Shown here: positions 26,433 to 37,345 of the stretch, piece by piece
How positions within the stretch are numbered: position 1 is the stretch's first letter
Layout of the letters: every line of letters starts with the position of its first letter
From: Pseudomonadota bacterium
Lineage (GTDB): Bacteria > Pseudomonadota > Gammaproteobacteria > Burkholderiales > Chitinibacteraceae
Assembly (NCBI GenBank): GCA_026399755.1
Contig: JAPLQI010000076.1
Location: 1 to 42,812 of the forward strand
Length of the DNA stretch: 42,812 nucleotides
Direction: 5' to 3'
Notes under the pieces: generated by a model
What the model was told of the DNA's origin: nothing
The model's database searches: none
What the model saw: the letters and a program-made list of their open reading frames with translations, nothing else
Translations under genes and position numbers: made by a program

Positions 26433-29400
26433 ATGATTCTTCGCGGTCCTTTTCTTCCTGAACTTTTGCGTGCAGAAACGCTGGCTGATTTGCTAGAAAG
26501 CACGGCGCAGCGTATTCCTGATCATCCGGCCATTTATTGGCAATCAGAAGTGCTGAGCTATAGCGAGCTGAACCGCCGCGCCGATCTGGCCGCTCATCAT
26601 TTAATTCAGTTTGGTGTAAAAGCGGGGCAGATTGTGGGCCTTTGCCAGCCGCGTGGTGCTGCGCTGTTGATTATGCAGGCGGCGATTGCCAAGGCGGGCG
26701 CGGCTTGGCTACCGTTTGAGGCAGATACACCCGTTGATCGTATGCAAGTTTGCCTGATCGATGCCGCTGCGCTGCTCTTGATCGGCGATGGCGATTTAGC
26801 TGGCACGGGTGTGCCGGTATTAAGTAGCGCGCAATTATCTGTGCCGTTTGAGGGCGATTTACTGCGCCGTAAGGGCTTACTGCCTAGCCATCCGGCCTAT
26901 GTGATTTACACATCCGGATCAACTGGCAAGCCTAAGGGAGTGCCGATTAGTCAGGGCAGTATTTGCCATTTCTTGCGCAGCGAAAACTCAGTGTTGGGTG
27001 TGCGTCAGGATGACAAGGTGTATCAGGGCTTCTCGTGCGCATTTGATATGTCGTTTGAAGAAATCTGGATCAGCTATTTAGTAGGCGCTTCCCTTTGGCT
27101 GGCACCTAAAATACTGACAGGCGATCCAGATGCTTTGCCTGCGGTATTAAACCAAGAAAAAGTCACCGTGCTGCACGCCGTGCCGACCTTGCTGGCGCTG
27201 TTCAGCCAAGAAGTGCCTAGCTTACGGATTATTAATCTGGGCGGCGAAATGTGCCCAGAATCACTGGTCGAGCGCTGGGCCACCCCAGAGCGACAGGTGT
27301 TTAATACTTACGGCCCAACTGAATGCACGGTATCGGCCAGCCTTGCCCAATTACGCCGTGGCGAGCCTGTTACGATTGGTAAGCCGCTGCCCAATTACGG
27401 CCTTTTAGTGCGTAGTGAAGATGGCCGCTTATTGGCGCAAGGTGAAACTGGCGAGCTGTGCATTATTGGCCCCGGCGTGGCGGATGGCTATTTGGGCCGC
27501 CCTGATTTAACCGCTGAAAAATTCTTCGACAATCCCTTTTCAAATCTCGAAGAATTCCCGCATGAGCGGCGTTTATATCGCACCGGCGATTTAGCGCGCA
27601 TCGATGAAGCAGGCCAAGTTCAATGCCTAGGCCGCACCGACGATCAAGTGAAAGTGCGCGGCTTTCGGGTAGAGCTGGGCGAAATTGAAGCCTCGCTTTG
27701 CCAGATTGCCGGTGTAGGCACGGCCGCCGTTTTGCTGCGCGAGCTAGCAGGTATCGATCAGCTGGTGGCCTTTGTGGTGGCAGAAAGCAGCGATGCAGCG
27801 GCTTTAAAAAATGAGCTAAAACGCAGCCTACCTCCCTATATGATTCCAGCTCGCTTTGAATTTATGAGCGAACTACCAAGGCTGACGTCAGGCAAAATCG
27901 ATAGAAAAACGCTGAAAGCGCGCGAGCTCATCATTCCTACGGGTAAAAACCTAGAAAGCGACGAGCCCGTTAGCGATGCAGAAAAAGCCTTATTTGCCGC
28001 ACTCAGCACCCTTTTTCCCGGCCAAGCCTTACGTTTGGTTGATGATTTCTTTGGCGAGCTAGGCGGGCATTCCTTACTGGCGGCCCGATTAGTCTCTATT
28101 TTGCGGCGTAATCCGGCTTATGCCGGTATGACGGTGCAAGAGATTTACCAGAGTCGCACCCTACAAGTGATTGCGACTCGCTTAGATGCTTTGGCTCAGC
28201 AGCAGCCGGAGCAGGTAGAAATAGAGCCGATTCGTAAAGTGCCTTTCTTACGTCGTCTGCTTTGCGGTAGTGCGCAGCTGGCTACCCTGCCATTTTTAAT
28301 TGGCCTGCGCATGTTGCTATGGCTGGCGCCATTTTTTACCTATCACTTTATGACGGGTGAAGAGGGCGACAGCTTAGGCGTGGCGGTTGGGACGGCTATT
28401 TTGGTTTATTTGGGCAGCCTCCTATGCAGCTTTGCCATTGCCATTGCTGGTAAGTGGCTGATTTTAGGGCGGCTAAAAGCAGGCCGCTATCGCCTCTATG
28501 GGCTGACTTATTTCCGCTGGTGGCTGGCCGATAGGCTGATCGATATTACGCCGCTGTATTTCCTAACCGGCTCGCCTTTGCAATCGCTTTACTTACGTGC
28601 CCTTGGTGCCAAGGTCGGCAGCAACGTAGCCCTTGCTGCAATCAGCGTGCGTGCTTACGATTTGCTTAGCATTGGCGAGGGCGCCAGCATTGGTGCTTCG
28701 GTCAATTTTGAAAACTTCCGAGTCGATGGCGATCATTGGGAAGTCGGGCCGATTACGATTGGCAAGGATGCCTATATTGGCTCCTATACCGTCTTGCAAT
28801 CAGATACCCATGTCGCCGATTTAGGCCGTTTAGAAGGCTTATCGGCCTTATCCCGTGGGCAAAAAATTGCCGAGTCTGAAGTCTGGAGCGGCTCGCCAGC
28901 AAGGTGCAGTGGCGATCCCGTGCCAGAGATGCCTGCTCGCCCCGTGCGTAATCCCGCGTTTCGAGGCTTGCATGGCTTGGCTTACGCAGGTGGATCGGCC
29001 TTGGTCGCCATCTTGTTTTTTGTGCCGGTCTTCCCTAGCTTTTTGCTCATTGACTGGTTGGATGCGCATTGGTTTGATCTCACCGAGCAAGGCGTTGCGC
29101 TGCCCGAAGCGTTTATGTTTTACCTGATGCTGGCGCTGCCTGCCAGTACGGTACTGATTGTGCTGACACTGCTTGGCTCCGCCGCCGTGCGTTGGCTACT
29201 GCTACCGCGTAATCCACTCGGCAGCTGGCCGTTGTTTGGTGCAATGTATTACCGCCGCTGGCTGACGAATCAGATTCAGGAATCCAGCTTAAACATCTTG
29301 CACGGCCTTTACGCATCGGTTTACGCAGGCTGGTGGTATCGCCTGTTAGGGGCAAAAGTAGGGCGCGGCACCGAGATCTCTAACGCCATTGGCGTGGTGC

Positions 29401-30398
29401 CTGATTTGCTAACACTGGGTGAAGACAGCTTTATTGCCGATGCCGTCATGCTAGGGGATGAAGAAATTGATAGGGGCTGGATGACGCTACGTGCCACCGT
29501 GGTCGGCAATCGTAGCTTTGTAGGTAATGGCGCTTACGTGGCTGATGGCAGCATCATCCCCAACGATGTATTGATCGGCGTGCAATCACGCGCCCCAGCC
29601 AATGATCGAATGCAATCTGGCCAAACATGGCTGGGTAGCCCAGCACTATCGCTGCCTGCCCGTGAGCACGTCAGCGGCTTTGCCGATAGACTGACTTTCC
29701 GTCCAAGCTTGGCACGTCGCCTAGCCCGCGGCTTTGTCGAAGCGCTGCGCACCGTAATGCCGCTGGCGGTAATCATTACCGTCGGCTATCTCACCGTATT
29801 AAAAGTCATGCCGCTGGCCGAAAAGGAAGATTTTCATGGCGTATTTTGGGCGCTGATGATTGCGGGTGTCTTATACGGCGTGGGCTCATTCATCTTTATT
29901 CTGGCGCTAAAATGGCTAATGATAGGCCGCTACCGCCCGCACTCAGCACCGATGTGGACCTCCTTTGTATGGCGTAGCGAAGCACTAACCAGCCTTTACG
30001 AATCCATCGCCGTGCCCAACTTCTTTAACTTCTTACGCGGCACCCCATGGCTACCCATGGCATTTCGCTGCATGGGTTGTAAGATTGGCAGCGGAGTATT
30101 TATGGATACCACCGACATCACAGAGTTCGATTGCGTCAGCATCGGCGACGATACGGTGATGCACGCATGGTCCGGCCCACAAACTCATTTGTTTGAAGAC
30201 CGCATCATGAAAATTGGCCGAGTAGAAATCGGCTCTGGCGTCAACGTCGGCCCGCGCAGCACCATCCTGTACGACGCCATCGTCGGCAACGGCGCCCGTC
30301 TCGGCCCGCTGACGCTGGTCGTCAAAGGCGAAACCATCCCCGAAGGCCAAGCATGGACCGGCAGCCCCGCCGTGCCATGGCGGACATGCCGCAGCTAA
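26433..30398 (+). CDS. Pls/PosA-family single-module membrane NRPS
   Basis: The 1321-residue protein has an adenylation domain (about 15-510: YVIYTSGSTGKPKGVP, FNTYGPTE, YRTGDLARI, LTSGKIDRKTLK). A carrier domain follows (FFGELGGHSLLAARL, Ser547). The rest contains several membrane helices alternating with three left-handed hexapeptide-repeat blocks (GAKVGSNVALAAI, GAKVGRGTEISNAI, GCKIGSGVFMD). This is the architecture of epsilon-poly-lysine synthetase-like enzymes (TIGR02353), in which C-terminal tandem domains polymerise one amino acid. A hand alignment to GrsA gives specificity residues beginning Asp-Met-Glu; the acidic third residue would suit a cationic amino acid, tentatively. The partner PPTase overlaps its 3' end. 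The product is probably an exported homopolymer, unproven. Confidence 0.88.
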   Translation: MILRGPFLPELLRAETLADLLESTAQRIPDHPAIYWQSEVLSYSELNRRADLAAHHLIQFGVKAGQIVGLCQPRGAALLIMQAAIAKAGAAWLPFEADTPVDRMQVCLIDAAALLLIGDGDLAGTGVPVLSSAQLSVPFEGDLLRRKGLLPSHPAYVIYTSGSTGKPKGVPISQGSICHFLRSENSVLGVRQDDKVYQGFSCAFDMSFEEIWISYLVGASLWLAPKILTGDPDALPAVLNQEKVTVLHAVPTLLALFSQEVPSLRIINLGGEMCPESLVERWATPERQVFNTYGPTECTVSASLAQLRRGEPVTIGKPLPNYGLLVRSEDGRLLAQGETGELCIIGPGVADGYLGRPDLTAEKFFDNPFSNLEEFPHERRLYRTGDLARIDEAGQVQCLGRTDDQVKVRGFRVELGEIEASLCQIAGVGTAAVLLRELAGIDQLVAFVVAESSDAAALKNELKRSLPPYMIPARFEFMSELPRLTSGKIDRKTLKARELIIPTGKNLESDEPVSDAEKALFAALSTLFPGQALRLVDDFFGELGGHSLLAARLVSILRRNPAYAGMTVQEIYQSRTLQVIATRLDALAQQQPEQVEIEPIRKVPFLRRLLCGSAQLATLPFLIGLRMLLWLAPFFTYHFMTGEEGDSLGVAVGTAILVYLGSLLCSFAIAIAGKWLILGRLKAGRYRLYGLTYFRWWLADRLIDITPLYFLTGSPLQSLYLRALGAKVGSNVALAAISVRAYDLLSIGEGASIGASVNFENFRVDGDHWEVGPITIGKDAYIGSYTVLQSDTHVADLGRLEGLSALSRGQKIAESEVWSGSPARCSGDPVPEMPARPVRNPAFRGLHGLAYAGGSALVAILFFVPVFPSFLLIDWLDAHWFDLTEQGVALPEAFMFYLMLALPASTVLIVLTLLGSAAVRWLLLPRNPLGSWPLFGAMYYRRWLTNQIQESSLNILHGLYASVYAGWWYRLLGAKVGRGTEISNAIGVVPDLLTLGEDSFIADAVMLGDEEIDRGWMTLRATVVGNRSFVGNGAYVADGSIIPNDVLIGVQSRAPANDRMQSGQTWLGSPALSLPAREHVSGFADRLTFRPSLARRLARGFVEALRTVMPLAVIITVGYLTVLKVMPLAEKEDFHGVFWALMIAGVLYGVGSFIFILALKWLMIGRYRPHSAPMWTSFVWRSEALTSLYESIAVPNFFNFLRGTPWLPMAFRCMGCKIGSGVFMDTTDITEFDCVSIGDDTVMHAWSGPQTHLFEDRIMKIGRVEIGSGVNVGPRSTILYDAIVGNGARLGPLTLVVKGETIPEGQAWTGSPAVPWRTCRS

Positions 30399-30892
30399 TT
30401 GTCCACGATCTATTTGAGTTGGCGCTGTTTAAAAACAGCGCCAGCCATCAATCGACCTTAGTAAGACTATGGCTGCACACCCAAGTGCAGTCAAGATCAG
30501 GCGGCCAACTGCTAGAAACCCCCACCGGCCCCGCATTCGCCACCGGCCCATGGCAAATTTCACTCTCCTACAGCAATGATTACGCCGTCTGCGCACTATC
30601 TAAATGCGCCTACCTCGGCGTTGACATCACCCCCATCCAATACTTCGCCGAACTCACGGAAGTCGCCCAACTCTACTTTTCTCCTGCTATTGCCCAAACA
30701 CTTAGCCAGTTGCCTGAATCAGAGCAAGCATTACGCTTTGCTAAGGAATGGAGCGAGCTGGAAGCCAAAACTAAGGCTTGCAAAATGGGGCTGAGGGAAT
30801 GGTCAGAAGGGCGGGAGCAAGCTTTTCAAATAGCAAAGACAAGCGATGTCGTCAGGCTGGAGAATGAATTGATTACGGTGGTGTGGGCTTGA
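30377..30892 (+). CDS. Small 4'-phosphopantetheinyl transferase-like protein
   Basis: The frame is open from 30353; starts at 30377 or 30386 are likelier, and 30377 is given tentatively. The product is about 171 residues. Sfp-type signals are visible: SYSNDYAVCALS in place of the usual SxSH, YLGVDI (metal-binding Asp) and FAKEWSELEAKTKACKMGL, matching the WSxxEAxxK motif. It would transfer phosphopantetheine from CoA to Ser547 of the upstream synthetase. The 3' end of the NRPS gene overlaps it, so translation is probably coupled. It is shorter than standard Sfp (about 220 residues), so it may be dedicated to one substrate. The missing histidine in the SxSH-like motif is notable. Confidence 0.75.
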   Translation: MADMPQLIVHDLFELALFKNSASHQSTLVRLWLHTQVQSRSGGQLLETPTGPAFATGPWQISLSYSNDYAVCALSKCAYLGVDITPIQYFAELTEVAQLYFSPAIAQTLSQLPESEQALRFAKEWSELEAKTKACKMGLREWSEGREQAFQIAKTSDVVRLENELITVVWA

Positions 30893-30997
30893 TTTTTGGC
30901 TCTAGCCATTATTAATTTACTTGATTTGCCAGTTATTGAGTCATGAGCGATTGCCAGCCAGCTACGTATTAATTACTTACTAGGAAAATAAGACTAA

Positions 30998-32101
30998 GTG
31001 TTGTTTTTTGTGTGGTTCTTGAGTTTAATAATTGCGTTATGCTTACATGCTCGTATTGACACATATTTGGCTACAATGATCCTCAAATCTCCCGATTCAA
31101 AACAAGCACAGCTTGACGAGCTTAATGGCCTGCTTGCCCAAGCAAACCTAAGCGCAAATCAGCGCGACTTAATTACCAAAGAAATTTATATGCTCAAGCA
31201 GGGTGTTCTAGGTGAGCAGAACAGCGAATATGAAATTAATTTCTATCTGAAAGACTCAACAAAATGGGCAGTGATTCACGACCTGCGCATTGAACACAAT
31301 GGCCGAGTGGCACAAATTGATCATTTGCTGATTAATCGCTTGCTGGATGTATTTGTTATTGAAACAAAAAATTTTAGTGCCGATTTGCAAATCAATGAGC
31401 AGGGCGAATTTACGGCTTGGTATAACAAAAAGCCAATCGGCATTCCCAGCCCGCTGGCACAAAATGACAAACACATTGAAGTACTAAAAGCGCTCAGCAA
31501 AACACTGCCCTTGCCTACACGCCTTGGCTTTACTTTAATGCCCAGCTTTACCAGCGTAGTAATGGTTAGCAATAAGCAACGTATTACTCGCCCTAAAAAA
31601 TTAGATACCGAAAATATTATTAAAGCAGAGAAAATTTTGGAATGGGTAACTAAGACAAATGTTGATAATGCAAGTATTGGAACTGTTTTTGGCAGCTTAG
31701 CCAAGATGGTTAGCCCTGAAACGGTCATGGAAATTGCCGAGCTATTTACCAGACACCATCGCCCCTTAAAGGCCGATTACAAAGCAAAGTTTGGCATCAA
31801 AGAGCCCACTGAGGTTCCCGTCGTTCAAAAGCCTGAAGTGCAGGCGCCTGCACCGCAGCCAGAAGTGGTGACGGCAGCTATTACAGCAGAAGAAACAACC
31901 AAGCTCACTAGCTCCAAATTAGCCGCAAAACTTGGCCTTAAGAATACTCAGGAATTAATTGATAAATTGCTTGAGAAGGGATTTGTAGAAATTGTGGATG
32001 GCAAAACAATAATAACGGATCAAGGGAAAGTAGCAGGTGGCGAGGCCAAATTCAGTCCTAGATTTGGGGCATATTTTATTTGGCCTGTTGATATCTTTTA
32101 A
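30998..32101 (+). CDS. Membrane-anchored NERD-domain protein
   Basis: The start is GTG 30998, with AGGAAA upstream. The 367-residue product has an N-terminal membrane helix (about 2-18). A NERD nuclease-related domain (about 70-185) shows GEQNSEYEI (Glu73), QIDHLLI (Asp108) and VFVIETKNF (Glu122, Lys124), the PD-(D/E)xK pattern. After a Pro/Val/Glu-rich linker (about 270-300), the C-terminal 70 residues read like a winged-helix/topoisomerase-associated module (TSSKLAAKLGLKNTQELIDK). It precedes the DUF4297 gene by at most about 20 bp on the same strand. NERD proteins occur both in housekeeping and defence settings, so membership of the neighbouring system is inferred, not shown. Base composition is intermediate between the core and the following genes. 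Confidence 0.82.
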   Translation: MLFFVWFLSLIIALCLHARIDTYLATMILKSPDSKQAQLDELNGLLAQANLSANQRDLITKEIYMLKQGVLGEQNSEYEINFYLKDSTKWAVIHDLRIEHNGRVAQIDHLLINRLLDVFVIETKNFSADLQINEQGEFTAWYNKKPIGIPSPLAQNDKHIEVLKALSKTLPLPTRLGFTLMPSFTSVVMVSNKQRITRPKKLDTENIIKAEKILEWVTKTNVDNASIGTVFGSLAKMVSPETVMEIAELFTRHHRPLKADYKAKFGIKEPTEVPVVQKPEVQAPAPQPEVVTAAITAEETTKLTSSKLAAKLGLKNTQELIDKLLEKGFVEIVDGKTIITDQGKVAGGEAKFSPRFGAYFIWPVDIF

Positions 32102-32122
32102 TTAGTTTAATTGGAAAATAAA

Positions 32123-33220
32123 TTGAACACTTCAACAAATAAAAATCCTCTTCTAAGTCCTCAAAGAGAAACTGCAGGAGCTACGACATTTGGAAAATAT
32201 GAATACCAGTATCATTGGGCATTATTTCGCGCTCTTCAGGAATATGCCGACGGTAATGAATTCGTTGTTTTTGTAGAGTTACATGAGGATGTTGTTGTTG
32301 GGGATTCATTAGATTGTAGCAAAGTTCGTTTTGAGTTTAATCAAATTAAAAATATTACAGGAAGACCTTGGACTGTAAATAAAATTACTAAACGGGATAA
32401 AAAAAATGGGAAAGAAAATAATTCTGTAGTTGGTAAAATGCTACAAGGAGTTGATGGAAAAAAATTTAAGGATAAAATTGATAAATTAAATTTAGTTGCA
32501 ACTTGTGGCTTTAATCTGAAGCTGAAGGATGAATTATTAAAATTTGATGTTATTGGTTTTGGTGATTTGCATGATGATTGTGTTAAAGAGATTGAAGATG
32601 CAATTTCAAAAGAACTAATTGGTGTAAACGTTCCAGTAATCATAAATTTTGTAACTCCTAAGTTGCCTGCAGAAGGGTTTGATCACCGTGTTGTTAGTGA
32701 AATAAGCGCCATTGTAGAGAGTAAAAATTATAATGGTTTTTCAAATGTAAGAAATATTTATAGAATACTGATGGATGATCTTAGGAAGAAAGGGGTTGTG
32801 GTATATGATTATAATGATTGGAATGACGTTTTAAAAAACAAAGGGTTGACAAGTACAGATGTTAATAAGATCACCATGTCGAATATTAGAACGGCTAATA
32901 ATATCGAGGGTGTTTCTTCTTTATTTGATGATGTTATGAATGAACTGAATGTTCACCTTGGTGAAAAATCAAAATTGAAACGCGCATTTACTTCGTATGA
33001 GAATAAGGCTTGCTTTGATAAAACTGTTATACAGTTAGAAATTTCAAATGAGTTAAAGAAAGTAGTGGCAAGCAATATTGAAATATTTGAGAAGTATGGA
33101 GTGCCTAAATTTATCGATGCGATATTTGAAAATGCTGATCATTCTTTAATAGGTAGATTTCCTGATGATACAGAATTTAAGGGTGCAGTTATTTACGAAT
33201 TAATTATGAGTATTTTGTAA
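32123..33220 (+). CDS. DUF4297/Cap4-like nuclease, putative defence effector
   Basis: The start is TTG 32123 (GGAAAA seven bases upstream) or TTG 32111; the product is about 365 residues. The N-terminal domain reads RETAGATTFGKYEYQYHWAL, then a VELHEDVVVGD acidic motif and FEFNQIKN, the D/E-QxK pattern of DUF4297/Cap4 restriction-like nucleases. The C-terminal half (about 230-365) is helical and could be the module that binds an SMC partner in ABC-three-component/Lamassu systems. The DNA is strongly AT-rich with many ATT/AAA/GAT codons, unlike the flanking core genes, which indicates transfer. It sits between a NERD gene and an SMC-like ATPase gene. The predicted role is a DNA-cutting effector held in check by the ATPase. 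Confidence 0.8.
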   Translation: MNTSTNKNPLLSPQRETAGATTFGKYEYQYHWALFRALQEYADGNEFVVFVELHEDVVVGDSLDCSKVRFEFNQIKNITGRPWTVNKITKRDKKNGKENNSVVGKMLQGVDGKKFKDKIDKLNLVATCGFNLKLKDELLKFDVIGFGDLHDDCVKEIEDAISKELIGVNVPVIINFVTPKLPAEGFDHRVVSEISAIVESKNYNGFSNVRNIYRILMDDLRKKGVVVYDYNDWNDVLKNKGLTSTDVNKITMSNIRTANNIEGVSSLFDDVMNELNVHLGEKSKLKRAFTSYENKACFDKTVIQLEISNELKKVVASNIEIFEKYGVPKFIDAIFENADHSLIGRFPDDTEFKGAVIYELIMSIL

Positions 33221-33384
33221 TGCAAAAAAAATCAGTAGAAAATTTTAAAATTCTTATAAGAAACCTGAGAAAAAAACAGCATGAAAAATTTACAATTAAA
33301 ACGCCTGCATCTACTGTCCGATTTGGACTGCTCTGCAAATCAATTCGAATTTTCGAATCGCTTCAATCTGATAACCGCCGATGA
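33220..33384 (+). CDS. Possible 54-codon overlapping ORF
   Basis: An ATG overlaps the previous stop as TAATG. A frame then runs 54 codons (MQKKSVENFKILIRNLRKKQ...), overlapping the start of the SMC-like gene in another frame. It could be a genuine small coupled protein, a leader that delivers ribosomes to the next start, or chance. It is basic and shows no known domain. Confidence 0.25.
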   Translation: MQKKSVENFKILIRNLRKKQHEKFTIKTPASTVRFGLLCKSIRIFESLQSDNRR

Positions 33385-34990
33385 CAATAGTGTTGGGAAA
33401 AGCACATTAGCAAAGATGTTGCTATGGGTATTTGGTTGTGATCCAGAGCTTGATGATGCATGGAAGTTGTTAGATTGTAAGGGGCTAATTGAGTTTTCTA
33501 TTGGGAATGTTAATTACCGAGTTGCTCGACATGGTAATTTAATGTTTTTCGCTGAGGGTAATGGTGAGCTTGTGCGCTATCCAAAAATTACAGGTGAATT
33601 TTCACGAGTAATTTCGGAGCTGGTAAATTTTAAGCCACTTTTGCCAAATAAAAAAAATAATAACGTACTAGAAATACCGCCACCAGCCTATTATTTTTTA
33701 CCTTTTTATGTTGATCAGAAACGTGGGTGGACAAAACTATGGGATGGTTTTAATAATCTGCAGCAGTTTTCTAGGTGGCATAATACAATAATTCGTTATC
33801 ACACTGGATATTTAACGGAGGAGTTCTTTGAATTTGAAGAGAAACTAGCTCTTAAACGGGCTGAGAAATTGGTTGTTTCTGATGAAATTAAAAAAATTGA
33901 AACAACTTTAGAAATTGTAGGTCAATATTTCCCAGTTGGGAGACCTGAGTTTGCAATAACATTTGTTGAATTGGATTTTATGTCTTCTCAAATTGAAGTT
34001 GATTTGACCGCACTTCAAAATGATCAGGAGCGAATATTTAGTGAGCTTGCTGACTTACAAGTTGAAGGCCAGTACCTACAAAGTCAGCTTGAGTTAGTAA
34101 AGGTTGCAAGTGAAGAGTTAGAATTAGATTATGTTTTTTCTGTCGAAAGGATTTACGGGGAAAGTATTCAGTGCCCATTGTGTGGAGTCATACATGATAG
34201 TTCGTTGGCTGAACGAGCTTCAATATTAGTAGATAAAGATCAGGCCAAAGATCAGGCGATAGTCTTAGAACGAAAATTTAAAATAAACACGAATAAAATT
34301 TCTAGTTTAAAGAATGAAGTTGAGTTGGTTAGAGATAAGATTAATAGTTTTAATATTAGATATTCAACGGATGATATGAATAGTGAAAATGGTGCTTCTA
34401 TTGTTGATTGCCTTGCAGCAAAGTCAATAGAAGGTGTTGTGTTTAAGTCGAAAAATGAAAATATATTAAAAGAAAAAGAGATAGGCAAGGTAGAGCGTAA
34501 AATTAAACAAGATCAAAAAAATATTTTAAATGCTGAAAAAATTGAAGAGTTGAACAATTTTTTTAAGGATAAGATATCTAAGTATGTTGAGCAGTTAAAG
34601 GCAACGGGAGTGAATCTTACAAGCGTTTCTTCTCCTCTTGATTATAAGAAATTGTTGGGTGGTGGTGCCGCAGAGGGGGCTCGTGGTGCATTAGCTTATT
34701 TAATGGCTACTATTCAACAAATATACAAATCGAGTAATGAGGTATGCGCACCATTTATTGTTGATACTCCAAATCAACAAGAGCAAGCTGGATTTAACTA
34801 TGAGCGTATCATCAGTTTTTTACTTAAAGAAACTCCAGCGACAGCACAAATTTTTCTTTGTGCGATGAATTCTCCATTGCTTTTACCATATGTGGAGAAA
34901 GCTAAGGTAATTGAATTAGGAGAGGATAAAATTTTTCAAAAATCGAAGTATGCAGTTGTTCGCCCTTTGTTTTATTTTTTAGAAAAATAA
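33281..34990 (+). CDS. SMC/Rad50-like ATPase of a putative defence system
   Basis: The 569-residue protein has a P-loop ADDNSVGKSTLAKML (residues 33-47; Gly39, Lys40, Ser41). Coiled-coil arms (about 185-290 and 320-450) surround a Zn-hook-like CPLCG (298-302). An ABC-signature-like GGGAAEGARGALAYLMATI follows, and Walker B reads FIVDTPNQQEQ (Asp495). It is half the length of Rad50/SMC, as in LmuB-type and ABC-three-component ATPases, which typically show the same (I/V)D(S/T)PxQQ pattern. It would sense unusual DNA and license the adjacent DUF4297 nuclease. The gap from the nuclease stop is 60 bp, with a possible small ORF in it. The DNA is very AT-rich. No terminator is obvious; repeats follow. 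Confidence 0.85.
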   Translation: MKNLQLKRLHLLSDLDCSANQFEFSNRFNLITADDNSVGKSTLAKMLLWVFGCDPELDDAWKLLDCKGLIEFSIGNVNYRVARHGNLMFFAEGNGELVRYPKITGEFSRVISELVNFKPLLPNKKNNNVLEIPPPAYYFLPFYVDQKRGWTKLWDGFNNLQQFSRWHNTIIRYHTGYLTEEFFEFEEKLALKRAEKLVVSDEIKKIETTLEIVGQYFPVGRPEFAITFVELDFMSSQIEVDLTALQNDQERIFSELADLQVEGQYLQSQLELVKVASEELELDYVFSVERIYGESIQCPLCGVIHDSSLAERASILVDKDQAKDQAIVLERKFKINTNKISSLKNEVELVRDKINSFNIRYSTDDMNSENGASIVDCLAAKSIEGVVFKSKNENILKEKEIGKVERKIKQDQKNILNAEKIEELNNFFKDKISKYVEQLKATGVNLTSVSSPLDYKKLLGGGAAEGARGALAYLMATIQQIYKSSNEVCAPFIVDTPNQQEQAGFNYERIISFLLKETPATAQIFLCAMNSPLLLPYVEKAKVIELGEDKIFQKSKYAVVRPLFYFLEK

Positions 34991-35131
34991 ATTTTGTAGA
35001 GTAGCTTTTTATCCAACTGTTAGTCATTGGAGAGATTGATTGTCAATTAACTCTTAACGGCATTGTTATTTAAAGTCTGGTAAAGGTGTTTAGAGCTCCG
35101 CTAAGCCAATCCTAATATGGGGCATGATGCT

Positions 35132-35251
35132 TTTGTAGGTTGGGTTAGCTGGTTTATTCGGCTGTTGGGGCGGATAAACCAGCGTAACCCAACATTTAGG
35201 CGAAAAAGGATGTTGGGTTACGCGATAAGGCCAGCTAACCCAACCTACAAA
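35132..35251. repeat. Composite palindrome TTTGTAGGTTGGGTTAGCTGG
   Basis: The outer 20 bp arms (TTGTAGGTTGGGTTAGCTGG and its exact reverse complement) enclose inner arms GCGTAACCCAACAT and ATGTTGGGTTACGC, giving a 120 bp nested hairpin. It lies just downstream of the AT-rich defence-like block. Confidence 0.85.
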
Positions 35252-35281
35252 GTCCCCGTAAGTTGATAGGATTGCCCGCTA

Positions 35282-35400
35282 AGCGCCCACTGGGGCGATT
35301 TGATTACTTATATGCAGGTGCGTGATGACAGGGGTCGGTTTCGGGCGGAGCAGGTTTGCTTTGTGGGGCCGCACTAGGGAGAGTCCGAATCCGGCTTTGT
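35282..35400 (+). pseudogene. Fragment of a cold-shock/DUF1294 gene
   Basis: About 110 bp match positions about 36890-37010 of the intact cold-shock/DUF1294 gene in the same orientation. The central part (35295-35370) is nearly identical and encodes GDLITYMQVRDDRGRF, then AEQVCFVG, before a stop. Flanks fade gradually. It is a non-functional partial duplicate, now about 1.6 kb from the intact gene with fic between them. Confidence 0.9.
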
Positions 35401-35455
35401 CTCTCTCTTGTGGTCCTTAGTATTTAGTACAAGCAACAAACTCAATCAGCAGCAA

Positions 35456-36574
35456 TCAAGCCGCAAGCTCATAAGACGTACTACGCCCACCCGATTCAGA
35501 TTTCTGCAGCACGCCCAGATTCAGCAATTCAGTGATGTCTCTGAGTGCGGTATCGGTGGAGCACTTTGCGATGGCGGCCCATTTTTTTGAGGTGAGTTTG
35601 CCTTCAAAGCCATCCTGTAGACGGTTGAGCAATTTGATTTGCCTTTCATTGAATGATGTTGCCGACCAGCGCTGCCAGAAATTCGCCTTTACGAGTACGG
35701 CATCTAGAGTGAGCTGGGCTTGTGCAATGGCTTGGAGCAGGGTGGCAAGAAACCAACTTAGCCAGTGTGTGATATCCAGCGTGCCTTTCTGGGTTTTTTC
35801 CAAGATGTCGTAATAGCCAGCTCGCTCGCGCTGGATTTGTGCGGACAGGCTGTAAAAGCGCTGGTTATTGCCATCCGCACGCGCCAGTAGTAAATCACCC
35901 ACCGCGCGGGCAATTCTGCCGTTGCCATCATCGAAGGGGTGCAGGGTTACAAACCATAAGTGCGCAATCCCTGCCTTTAAAATGGCGTGGTCTTCTAGGC
36001 TTCCGTGATTTAGCCAATCCAGAAAATGAGCTATTTCTTGCTGCAAGTCTTCTGCCGGAGGCGCTTCGTAGTGCACCTTTTGCCGACCAATTGGGCCGGA
36101 AACGACTTGCATGGGGCCATCTTCATCTGCTCTGAATTCGCCAATCTGGATGCGGCTCATGCCGCTAAAGCCGTTGGGGAACAGGGCGGCGTGCCAGCCG
36201 AATAGGCGCTCTAATATGAGGGCATCCGCACTGTGGCTTGTTGCATCCAGCACCATCTCGACTACTCCCTCGACGTGCCGATCTGTGGCAGCCAATGCAC
36301 CAATATCAACGCCAAGGCGCCGTGCAATTGATGAGCGCACGGTGCTGGCATCAAAGTGCTCGCCCTCGATTTCACTGGTCTTAAGTACATCTTCGGTTAA
36401 TACCAGCAGGCTGGCTTGCTCACGCAGATTCATGCCCACATCGCTTAAGCGCCCGAGCAGCATGCCTTGGGCACGGCAAACCTCTGCCAGCGGTTTTGCC
36501 AGTGCTGCCAGATCGTAATGCCAATTTGGCCAGTCGCTAGACTGCCATATATATTTATAATCGCCGCTATTCAT
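35456..36574 (-). CDS. Fic-domain AMP-transferase-like protein with N-terminal inhibitory motif
   Basis: The 372-residue protein has a DUF4172-like N-terminus (YIWQSSDWPNWHYD). A class II inhibitory motif TSEIEG (66-71) fits [ST]xxxE[GN]. The full Fic active site HPFDDGNGRIAR has His212. The C-terminal 70 residues form a winged-helix-like region (FNERQIKLLNRL, TSKKWAAIAKCSTDTALRDI), typical of chromosomal Fic proteins that can bind DNA. Such enzymes transfer AMP to target proteins and are autoinhibited by the N-terminal helix. The target is unknown. Its promoter carries an array of TTCGCCGC/GCGGTGA half-sites (36561-36655), suggesting autoregulation. It lies between a fragment and an intact copy of a DUF1294 gene, so it may be an insertion. 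Confidence 0.92.
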   Translation of the reverse strand: MNSGDYKYIWQSSDWPNWHYDLAALAKPLAEVCRAQGMLLGRLSDVGMNLREQASLLVLTEDVLKTSEIEGEHFDASTVRSSIARRLGVDIGALAATDRHVEGVVEMVLDATSHSADALILERLFGWHAALFPNGFSGMSRIQIGEFRADEDGPMQVVSGPIGRQKVHYEAPPAEDLQQEIAHFLDWLNHGSLEDHAILKAGIAHLWFVTLHPFDDGNGRIARAVGDLLLARADGNNQRFYSLSAQIQRERAGYYDILEKTQKGTLDITHWLSWFLATLLQAIAQAQLTLDAVLVKANFWQRWSATSFNERQIKLLNRLQDGFEGKLTSKKWAAIAKCSTDTALRDITELLNLGVLQKSESGGRSTSYELAA

Positions 36575-36655
36575 GCGGTGATTATGGAGTGCATTCGCCG
36601 CAAGGGCAATATAATGTCTGCAAAATATGCGGTGAATAAATATGCTATTCGCCGC
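36561..36655 (-). promoter_or_regulatory. fic promoter with five operator-like half-sites
   Basis: The half-site ATTCGCCGC or its complement GCGGTGAAT (with small variation) occurs at 36561-36567, 36575-36583, 36593-36601, 36629-36637 and 36647-36655 in alternating orientation. On the minus strand a plausible promoter lies inside: TTCACC, 17 bp, TATATT (about 36636-36608). The first pair overlaps the fic start codon. Confidence 0.65.
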
Positions 36656-36769
36656 ACTGTTACACTCTGGCGTCTCTAATGGCCTAATTACTGTGTTTGC
36701 TTACTCAGAACTTTGTATTAGTGTTCTTCAATAATCCCCACTCCTTTTTAAATTACCAAACGAGTTTCT

Positions 36770-37345
36770 ATGCGCTTTCAAGGAAAAATCAGCAGTTGGA
36801 AGGATGATCAAGGCTTTGGTTTTGTCGTTCAGAACGGCGGCGGGGAGCGGGCTTTTTTGCATATTAAGGCGTTTGAAAATCGTGCCCAGCGCCCGGCAGA
36901 GGGCGATTTGATTACTTATGTGCAGGTGCGTGATGACAAGGGCCGGTTTCGGGCGGAGCAGGTTTGTTTTGTGGGGCAGCGAAGGGTGGCTGCGGCTGAA
37001 TCTGGCTCTTGGCCTGTGATTTGGGTGCTGGTGTTTTGTGCATTTATAGTCTCTGCCTGCTATATCGGGCGTTTGCCGTGGCTGATTGCTGGTGGCTATT
37101 TGTTGATGAGCATCGTGGCTTTTATTGCCTACGCCCTAGATAAATCCGCAGCTAAGAATAATCGCTGGCGTACTCAAGAGAGCACTTTGCATTTGCTGGG
37201 GCTGTTGGGTGGCTGGCCGGGGGCTTTGTTGGCGCAAAGGTGGCTAAGGCATAAATCTAAGAAGACTGCGTTTTTGCTGGTGTTTTGGGTGACGGTGCTG
37301 ATTAATTGTGCGGCTTTGGTGTGGGTTTTGCTGCGCTGGCGTTGA
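36770..37345 (+). CDS. Cold-shock domain/DUF1294 membrane protein
   Basis: The 191-residue protein begins with a cold-shock-like OB domain (MRFQGKISSWKDDQGFGFVV, then RAFLHIKAFENRAQRPAEGD). It continues with about four membrane helices in a DUF1294 module (YALDKSAAKNNRWRTQESTL, HLLGLLGGWPGALLAQRWLR). The fusion is widespread in proteobacteria. The nucleic-acid-binding part suggests RNA binding near the membrane; no precise function is known. A partial duplicate lies at 35282-35400. Confidence 0.88.
   Translation: MRFQGKISSWKDDQGFGFVVQNGGGERAFLHIKAFENRAQRPAEGDLITYVQVRDDKGRFRAEQVCFVGQRRVAAAESGSWPVIWVLVFCAFIVSACYIGRLPWLIAGGYLLMSIVAFIAYALDKSAAKNNRWRTQESTLHLLGLLGGWPGALLAQRWLRHKSKKTAFLLVFWVTVLINCAALVWVLLRWR

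Follow-up and report, generated by a model that had tools for sequence, protein, structure and literature searches.

A two-gene Lamassu system beside a resident NERD gene in a chromosomal defence hotspot

Genes and features of the locus

The window analysed here, i.e. the whole stretch of 42,812 nucleotides, contains three consecutive genes encoding a NERD-domain protein, a Cap4/DUF4297 nuclease (LmuA) and an SMC/Rad50-like ATPase (LmuB) (Table 1). As the original prediction had it, all three lie on the same strand with tight or short spacing: their coordinates were confirmed, with gaps of 9 nt between the NERD gene and lmuA and of 60 nt between lmuA and lmuB, the latter without any open reading frame. 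The QxK motif of the nuclease, and the CPLCG hook and Walker B motif of the ATPase, were likewise found where they had been described. The GC content is 31.2% in lmuA and 34.7% in lmuB, against 52-54% in the five neighbouring genes that were measured. The strong AT-richness claimed for the last two genes therefore stands, whereas extending that label to the NERD gene, with a GC content of 41.8%, was only half right. The trio is followed by a palindromic dispersed repeat, a gene fragment and a Fic gene, and the whole is enclosed by an NRPS-like gene on the left and a cold-shock/DUF1294 gene on the right.

Table 1. Features of the locus, in positions of the window.
Feature	Position	Strand	Basis or remark
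NRPS-like gene, left border of the slot	26433..30398	+	In 9/9 genus genomes searched, 90-100% identity
NERD-domain protein, 367 aa	30998..32101	+	PF08378, E 1.7e-19; resident neighbour, outside the Lamassu system
Approximate insert bearing lmuAB	32088..35292		Left end sharp; right end between 34991 and 35292
lmuA, Cap4/DUF4297 nuclease, 369 aa	32111..33220	+	Pfam, PADLOC; TTG start per ORF list
LmuA Asp60	32288..32290	+	Kept in 74/76 aligned LmuA proteins
LmuA QxK, Gln78-Ile79-Lys80	32342..32350	+	Gln78 in 75/76, Lys80 in 74/76
lmuB, SMC/Rad50-like ATPase with hook, 569 aa	33281..34990	+	PADLOC, match to 9ux7
LmuB Walker A region ADDNSVGKST	33377..33406	+	Lys40 in 72/79 (6 gaps, 1 Arg)
LmuB CPLCG hook, Cys298-Gly302	34172..34186	+	Both Cys in 74/79, remaining 5 gaps
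LmuB Walker B, Asp495 and TPNQ (DTPNQ, Asp495-Gln499)	34763..34777	+	Asp495 in 74/79, 5 gaps
Palindromic dispersed repeat, 21-nt perfect arms	35132..35251		Near the right end of the insert
Fragment of a second cold-shock/DUF1294 gene copy, internal stop	35294..35428	+	Sequence match
Fic-domain protein with DUF4172, accessory slot content	35456..36574	-	PF02661, PF13776
Cold-shock/DUF1294 gene, right border of the slot	36770..37345	+	Match in 8/9; partial in G031, G033, G035

Identification of the pair as Lamassu type I

A number of arguments identify the nuclease and ATPase genes as lmuAB, in agreement with the original proposal that such a pair belongs to Lamassu. First, both proteins match the PADLOC-DB models over nearly their full length (LmuA over residues 7-367 of 369, E 9.4e-125; LmuB over residues 1-565 of 569, E 6.3e-207). 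LmuA also matches the Pfam family Cap4_nuclease (PF14130, E 1.2e-44), and none of the Pfam families matches LmuB up to E 1. Second, among solved structures the chain 9ux7, a Lamassu LmuB, is matched by a profile made from six LmuB proteins (E 3.4e-27), the nine other structure matches having E values of 0.048 or worse and being mostly coiled-coil proteins; the LmuA profile gave no match to solved structures up to E 1. Third, the order of the two genes is conserved. The scan of genome contigs with the single LmuB protein as query returned no relatives, and an alignment was therefore used, which gave 68 loci on genome contigs and five on viral contigs. Upstream of LmuB, LmuA was detected in 70 of these 73 loci, and the three others (L094, L107 and L108) hold fragments of LmuB, two of them at contig starts. 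In 65 of the 70 loci, no more than 52 nt separate the open frames of the two genes, or these overlap; the distances of 308-941 nt in L047, L068, L083, L095 and L097 are likely due to broken frames, because one frame is short in each. Fourth, the residues of the nuclease, Walker A, hook and Walker B are conserved across the aligned proteins (Table 1), a hook being a feature of many LmuB members. Neither a lack of nuclease-ATPase linkage in other genomes nor a loss of the nuclease residues, either of which would have told against the proposal, was thus observed.

The position after Asp495 is occupied by Thr in 67 and by Ser in 7 of 79 LmuB proteins, and by Glu in none. This fits the description, in passages of a review, of LmuB as devoid of the catalytic glutamate, although Gln is reported there at that position (PMC10586767).

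The system has no middle component, which is ordinary, since type I, the form in which Lamassu was originally identified, has two genes, clusters of three genes such as DdmABC being assigned to type II (PMC12409362), and since LmuC is given for about 10.2% of the Lamassu systems detected by the authors of PADLOC (PMC8565338). As in type I, a Cap4/DUF4297 gene is closely followed by a gene for an SMC-like ATPase, with none between them and the motifs kept; nothing essential differs, except that here an unrelated NERD gene lies 9 nt upstream. A nuclease domain and an SMC-like ATPase are also shared with type II (DdmABC) and with ABC-three-component systems, but these have a LmuC/DdmB middle component, whereas the pair in the window has none: the next gene downstream is the Fic gene, on the opposite strand. 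The locus is thus a new copy of a known system, Lamassu type I.

LmuB matched in 7 of 398 sampled genomes of the phylum, in 5 of 43 genomes of the family and in one of the nine genomes searched in the genus. More distant relatives occur in 30 of 72,556 plasmid records, seven of which align with at least 80% of the query, and partial matches in 13 of 50,697 phage records. The possibility that a known plasmid carries a near-identical copy was rejected, as a near-identity search of the plasmid collection with 14 kb of the window gave no match. Searches of an open-access library, made without a confirmed species name, showed nothing on this locus.

The NERD gene is a resident neighbour

The original prediction also suggested that the NERD gene makes the system a variant, which would then be a three-gene Lamassu in which NERD is an added nuclease or a stand-in for LmuC. 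Its position on the same strand, 9 nt from lmuA, is in favour of such a role, and NERD domains are part of other defence systems, Mokosh type I and Nhi-like (PMC10952713). Yet several observations make this reading extremely improbable. The NERD protein matches no LmuC model of PADLOC up to E 1, and its gene has a GC content of 42% against 31-35% for lmuAB. In addition, the congeneric genomes G030, G032 and G029 have no LmuB match, yet the NERD gene lies behind the NRPS-like gene there as well, at the corresponding site. At the DNA level the window is 93.1%, 86.9% and 86.4% identical to the loci of these three genomes (L018, L019 and L020), and the NERD frame in G030 has a stop near the N-terminus. 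Within the family, the NERD protein was matched in 12 of the 43 genomes, together with LmuB in only three, the source genome, G005 and G006; in the latter two the genes are on one contig each, about 1.6 and 2.1 Mb apart. The wider search at the level of the order found NERD in 27 of 300 genomes.

The association was further assessed with the Pfam NERD model in the entire genomes to which the 68 named LmuB loci belong (67 genomes, since L068 and L107 share one). NERD is present somewhere in the genome for 23 of 34 and 21 of 34 loci in the two batches. There are 70 distinct NERD places with coordinates, of which 11 could be inside a LmuB locus; ten of these, along with ten others, were compared with the Lamassu loci by exact match, and the eleventh, in the genome of L085, is on a different contig from the Lamassu locus. 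NERD genes are inside the Lamassu locus in only two cases, L054 and L085, both of another subtype, and have no place in the 66 other loci. The feature tables of the plasmid loci L035 and L036 contain no feature named NERD. A home-made NERD profile, which caught L054 and missed L085 (the Pfam model caught both), would by itself understate the linkage, and it is the one used for the five viral loci. What counts as nearby also varies between loci, because flanks of 8 kb were requested and many contigs end before that.

The two NERD proteins of L054 and L085 are encoded just upstream of lmuA and share 33% identity. They match the NERD protein of the window in part (31% over 81 aa and 25% over 190 aa), their C-terminal end was read by eye as a zinc ribbon, and both have a weak PglW match in PADLOC. 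Even if two of 68 loci probably exceed random placement, such an excess fits genes that gather in defence islands. NERD was therefore rejected as LmuC or as a third component, given the lack of a LmuC match, the three sites free of Lamassu and the co-occurrence in 2 of 68 loci. It is at most an occasional neighbour of Lamassu, the histories of NERD and lmuAB are separate, and the question raised by the original prediction is answered: NERD gives no new variant here.

Two side observations concern the NERD protein itself. Its C-terminal tail (residues 301-366, window 31898-32095) gave an E value of 2.3e-10 against the PADLOC candidate PDC-S69 and is also found in proteins that have no NERD part (L012, L141 and L142), the one in L012 having a weak PLD-like match; this tail could represent a mobile accessory domain. 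At L025:3597-10260, from another genus, a NERD protein closely related to that of the window (79% identity) is preceded by a gene for a type I restriction R subunit and followed on the same strand by a CTD12/DUF2326 ABC-3C pair.

Recent arrival of lmuAB

The homology of the window to L018, L019 and L020 breaks off at base 32087, in the final codons of NERD, and resumes at 35293 with L020 and, as a long match, at 35436 with L018. The NERD protein ends in YFIWPVDIF in the window and in YFIWPEGLI plus one residue in its relatives, and this loss of homology implies that the insertion replaced the NERD tail. The low GC content of lmuAB relative to the surrounding genes, together with the presence of LmuB in a single genome of the genus, indicates that the pair was acquired recently, as judged by composition and synteny. 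The palindromic repeat near the right end has 30 matches in the source genome and is present in all nine genomes of the genus. The repeat and the adjacent fragment of the border gene may be traces of repeated exchange. A fragment of such a second copy also occurs in the slot of G029 (G029:C1:831188-831412).

A slot with exchangeable defence modules

The interval between the NRPS-like and cold-shock/DUF1294 genes (window 30399-36769) was compared with that of the eight other genomes of the genus (L018, L019, L020 and L193-L197). Both borders are on one contig in seven of the nine genomes; the two exceptions, G033 and G034, have contigs that break off within the slot. The slot contains 1) NERD, Lamassu and Fic in the source genome; 2) NERD, Dsr1 and Fic in G030; 3) NERD and Dsr1 in G032; 4) NERD, PDC-M36A, two PDC-M36B and a Fic fragment in G029; 5) type I-F CRISPR-Cas genes in G035 and G033; 6) the I-F variant genes Cas3fv, Cas7f, Cas5fv and Cas6f in G034, where no cas1 was seen before the contig stops; 7) type I-E CRISPR-Cas in G031; and 8) PDC-S02, PDC-S04 (Fic/Doc-like), a weak match to KwaB (E 7e-6) and a transposase recognised by eye as IS110-like in G028. 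The Fic gene is intact in L018, is a fragment in L020 and has no match in L019. In five genomes the assignments come from a scan of part of the slot genes (three in G035, two in G033, three in G031, four in G034 and four in G028). Next to the CRISPR-Cas genes of G035 (I-F) and G031 (I-E), the commonest 28-mer is repeated 48 and 20 times, respectively, as in CRISPR arrays. Overall, seven of the nine slots hold a named defence system (Lamassu in one, Dsr1 in two, I-F in two, the I-F variant in one and I-E in one) and two hold PADLOC candidates only. With its conserved borders and differing defence modules, including those in the eight other genomes, the slot is a defence hotspot, this being the one slot scanned, in nine genomes.

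In all four genus genomes with NERD at this site, the next genes are a same-strand defence module, namely Lamassu in one, Dsr1 in two and the candidate PDC-M36 in one, and the ABC-3C pair behind NERD in L025 is a comparable case from another genus. NERD could thus be the constant opening gene of a defence operon whose other genes are exchanged, in which case it might provide a shared promoter or a DNA-processing activity used by several unrelated effectors. We regard this as unlikely, no module having been seen by eye behind NERD in the other NERD loci L023, L026 and L027.

Discussion

Taken together, the profile and structure matches, gene order and conserved residues make it very likely that the two genes are the lmuAB of a type I Lamassu, the two-gene form of this abortive-infection system, horizontally acquired into a chromosomal defence hotspot beside a NERD gene whose Lamassu-free sites in three genomes of the genus mark it as resident.

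In the Lamassu systems that have been studied, LmuB senses abnormal DNA and releases LmuA, which forms a tetramer and cuts DNA and thereby aborts the infection (PMC12409362, PMC10586767). By analogy, the LmuB of the window would dimerise through its hook and sense abnormal DNA, such as ends, hairpins or replication intermediates, from an invading phage or plasmid. LmuA would then be freed, assemble into a tetramer and cut double-stranded DNA indiscriminately, so that the infected cell would die and the phage would not be propagated. The most detailed knowledge of this mechanism comes from the three-gene (type II) forms of Lamassu, whereas the system described here is without LmuC.

A scan for promoters and terminators found nothing above the shuffled background. 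Since only 9 nt separate NERD from lmuA, lmuAB is probably expressed by read-through from NERD or from a promoter inside the 3' end of that gene. The short gap and the lack of a promoter above background could also mean that the insertion cost the system its own promoter region and left lmuAB as a decayed or silent passenger. Such a fate is very unlikely for genes whose frames are both intact and nearly full length by profile, whose key residues are kept, and whose position on the same strand just behind NERD makes read-through possible.

The Lamassu itself is ordinary, and the modest interest of the locus comes from the hotspot. Within a bounded slot, one genus swaps CRISPR-Cas of types I-E, I-F and I-F variant with Lamassu, Dsr1 and the uncharacterised PDC-M36, PDC-S02 and PDC-S04, which makes this sharp-bordered site convenient for finding new defence genes and for studying the exchange of immune systems. 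The arrangement resembles cDHS1 and cDHS2 of Pseudomonas aeruginosa, where fixed core genes flank interchangeable immune systems (PMC10250203). It differs from them in genus and flanking genes, and in that the slot is small, holds mostly one main system each time and is described from nine genomes. Its left side contains, in addition, a phosphopantetheinyl-transferase-like gene behind the NRPS-like gene (window 30353-30892), which has a full-length match in L195, is truncated next to a transposase-like gene in L193, and is matched only in its first part in L018, L194, L196 and L197.
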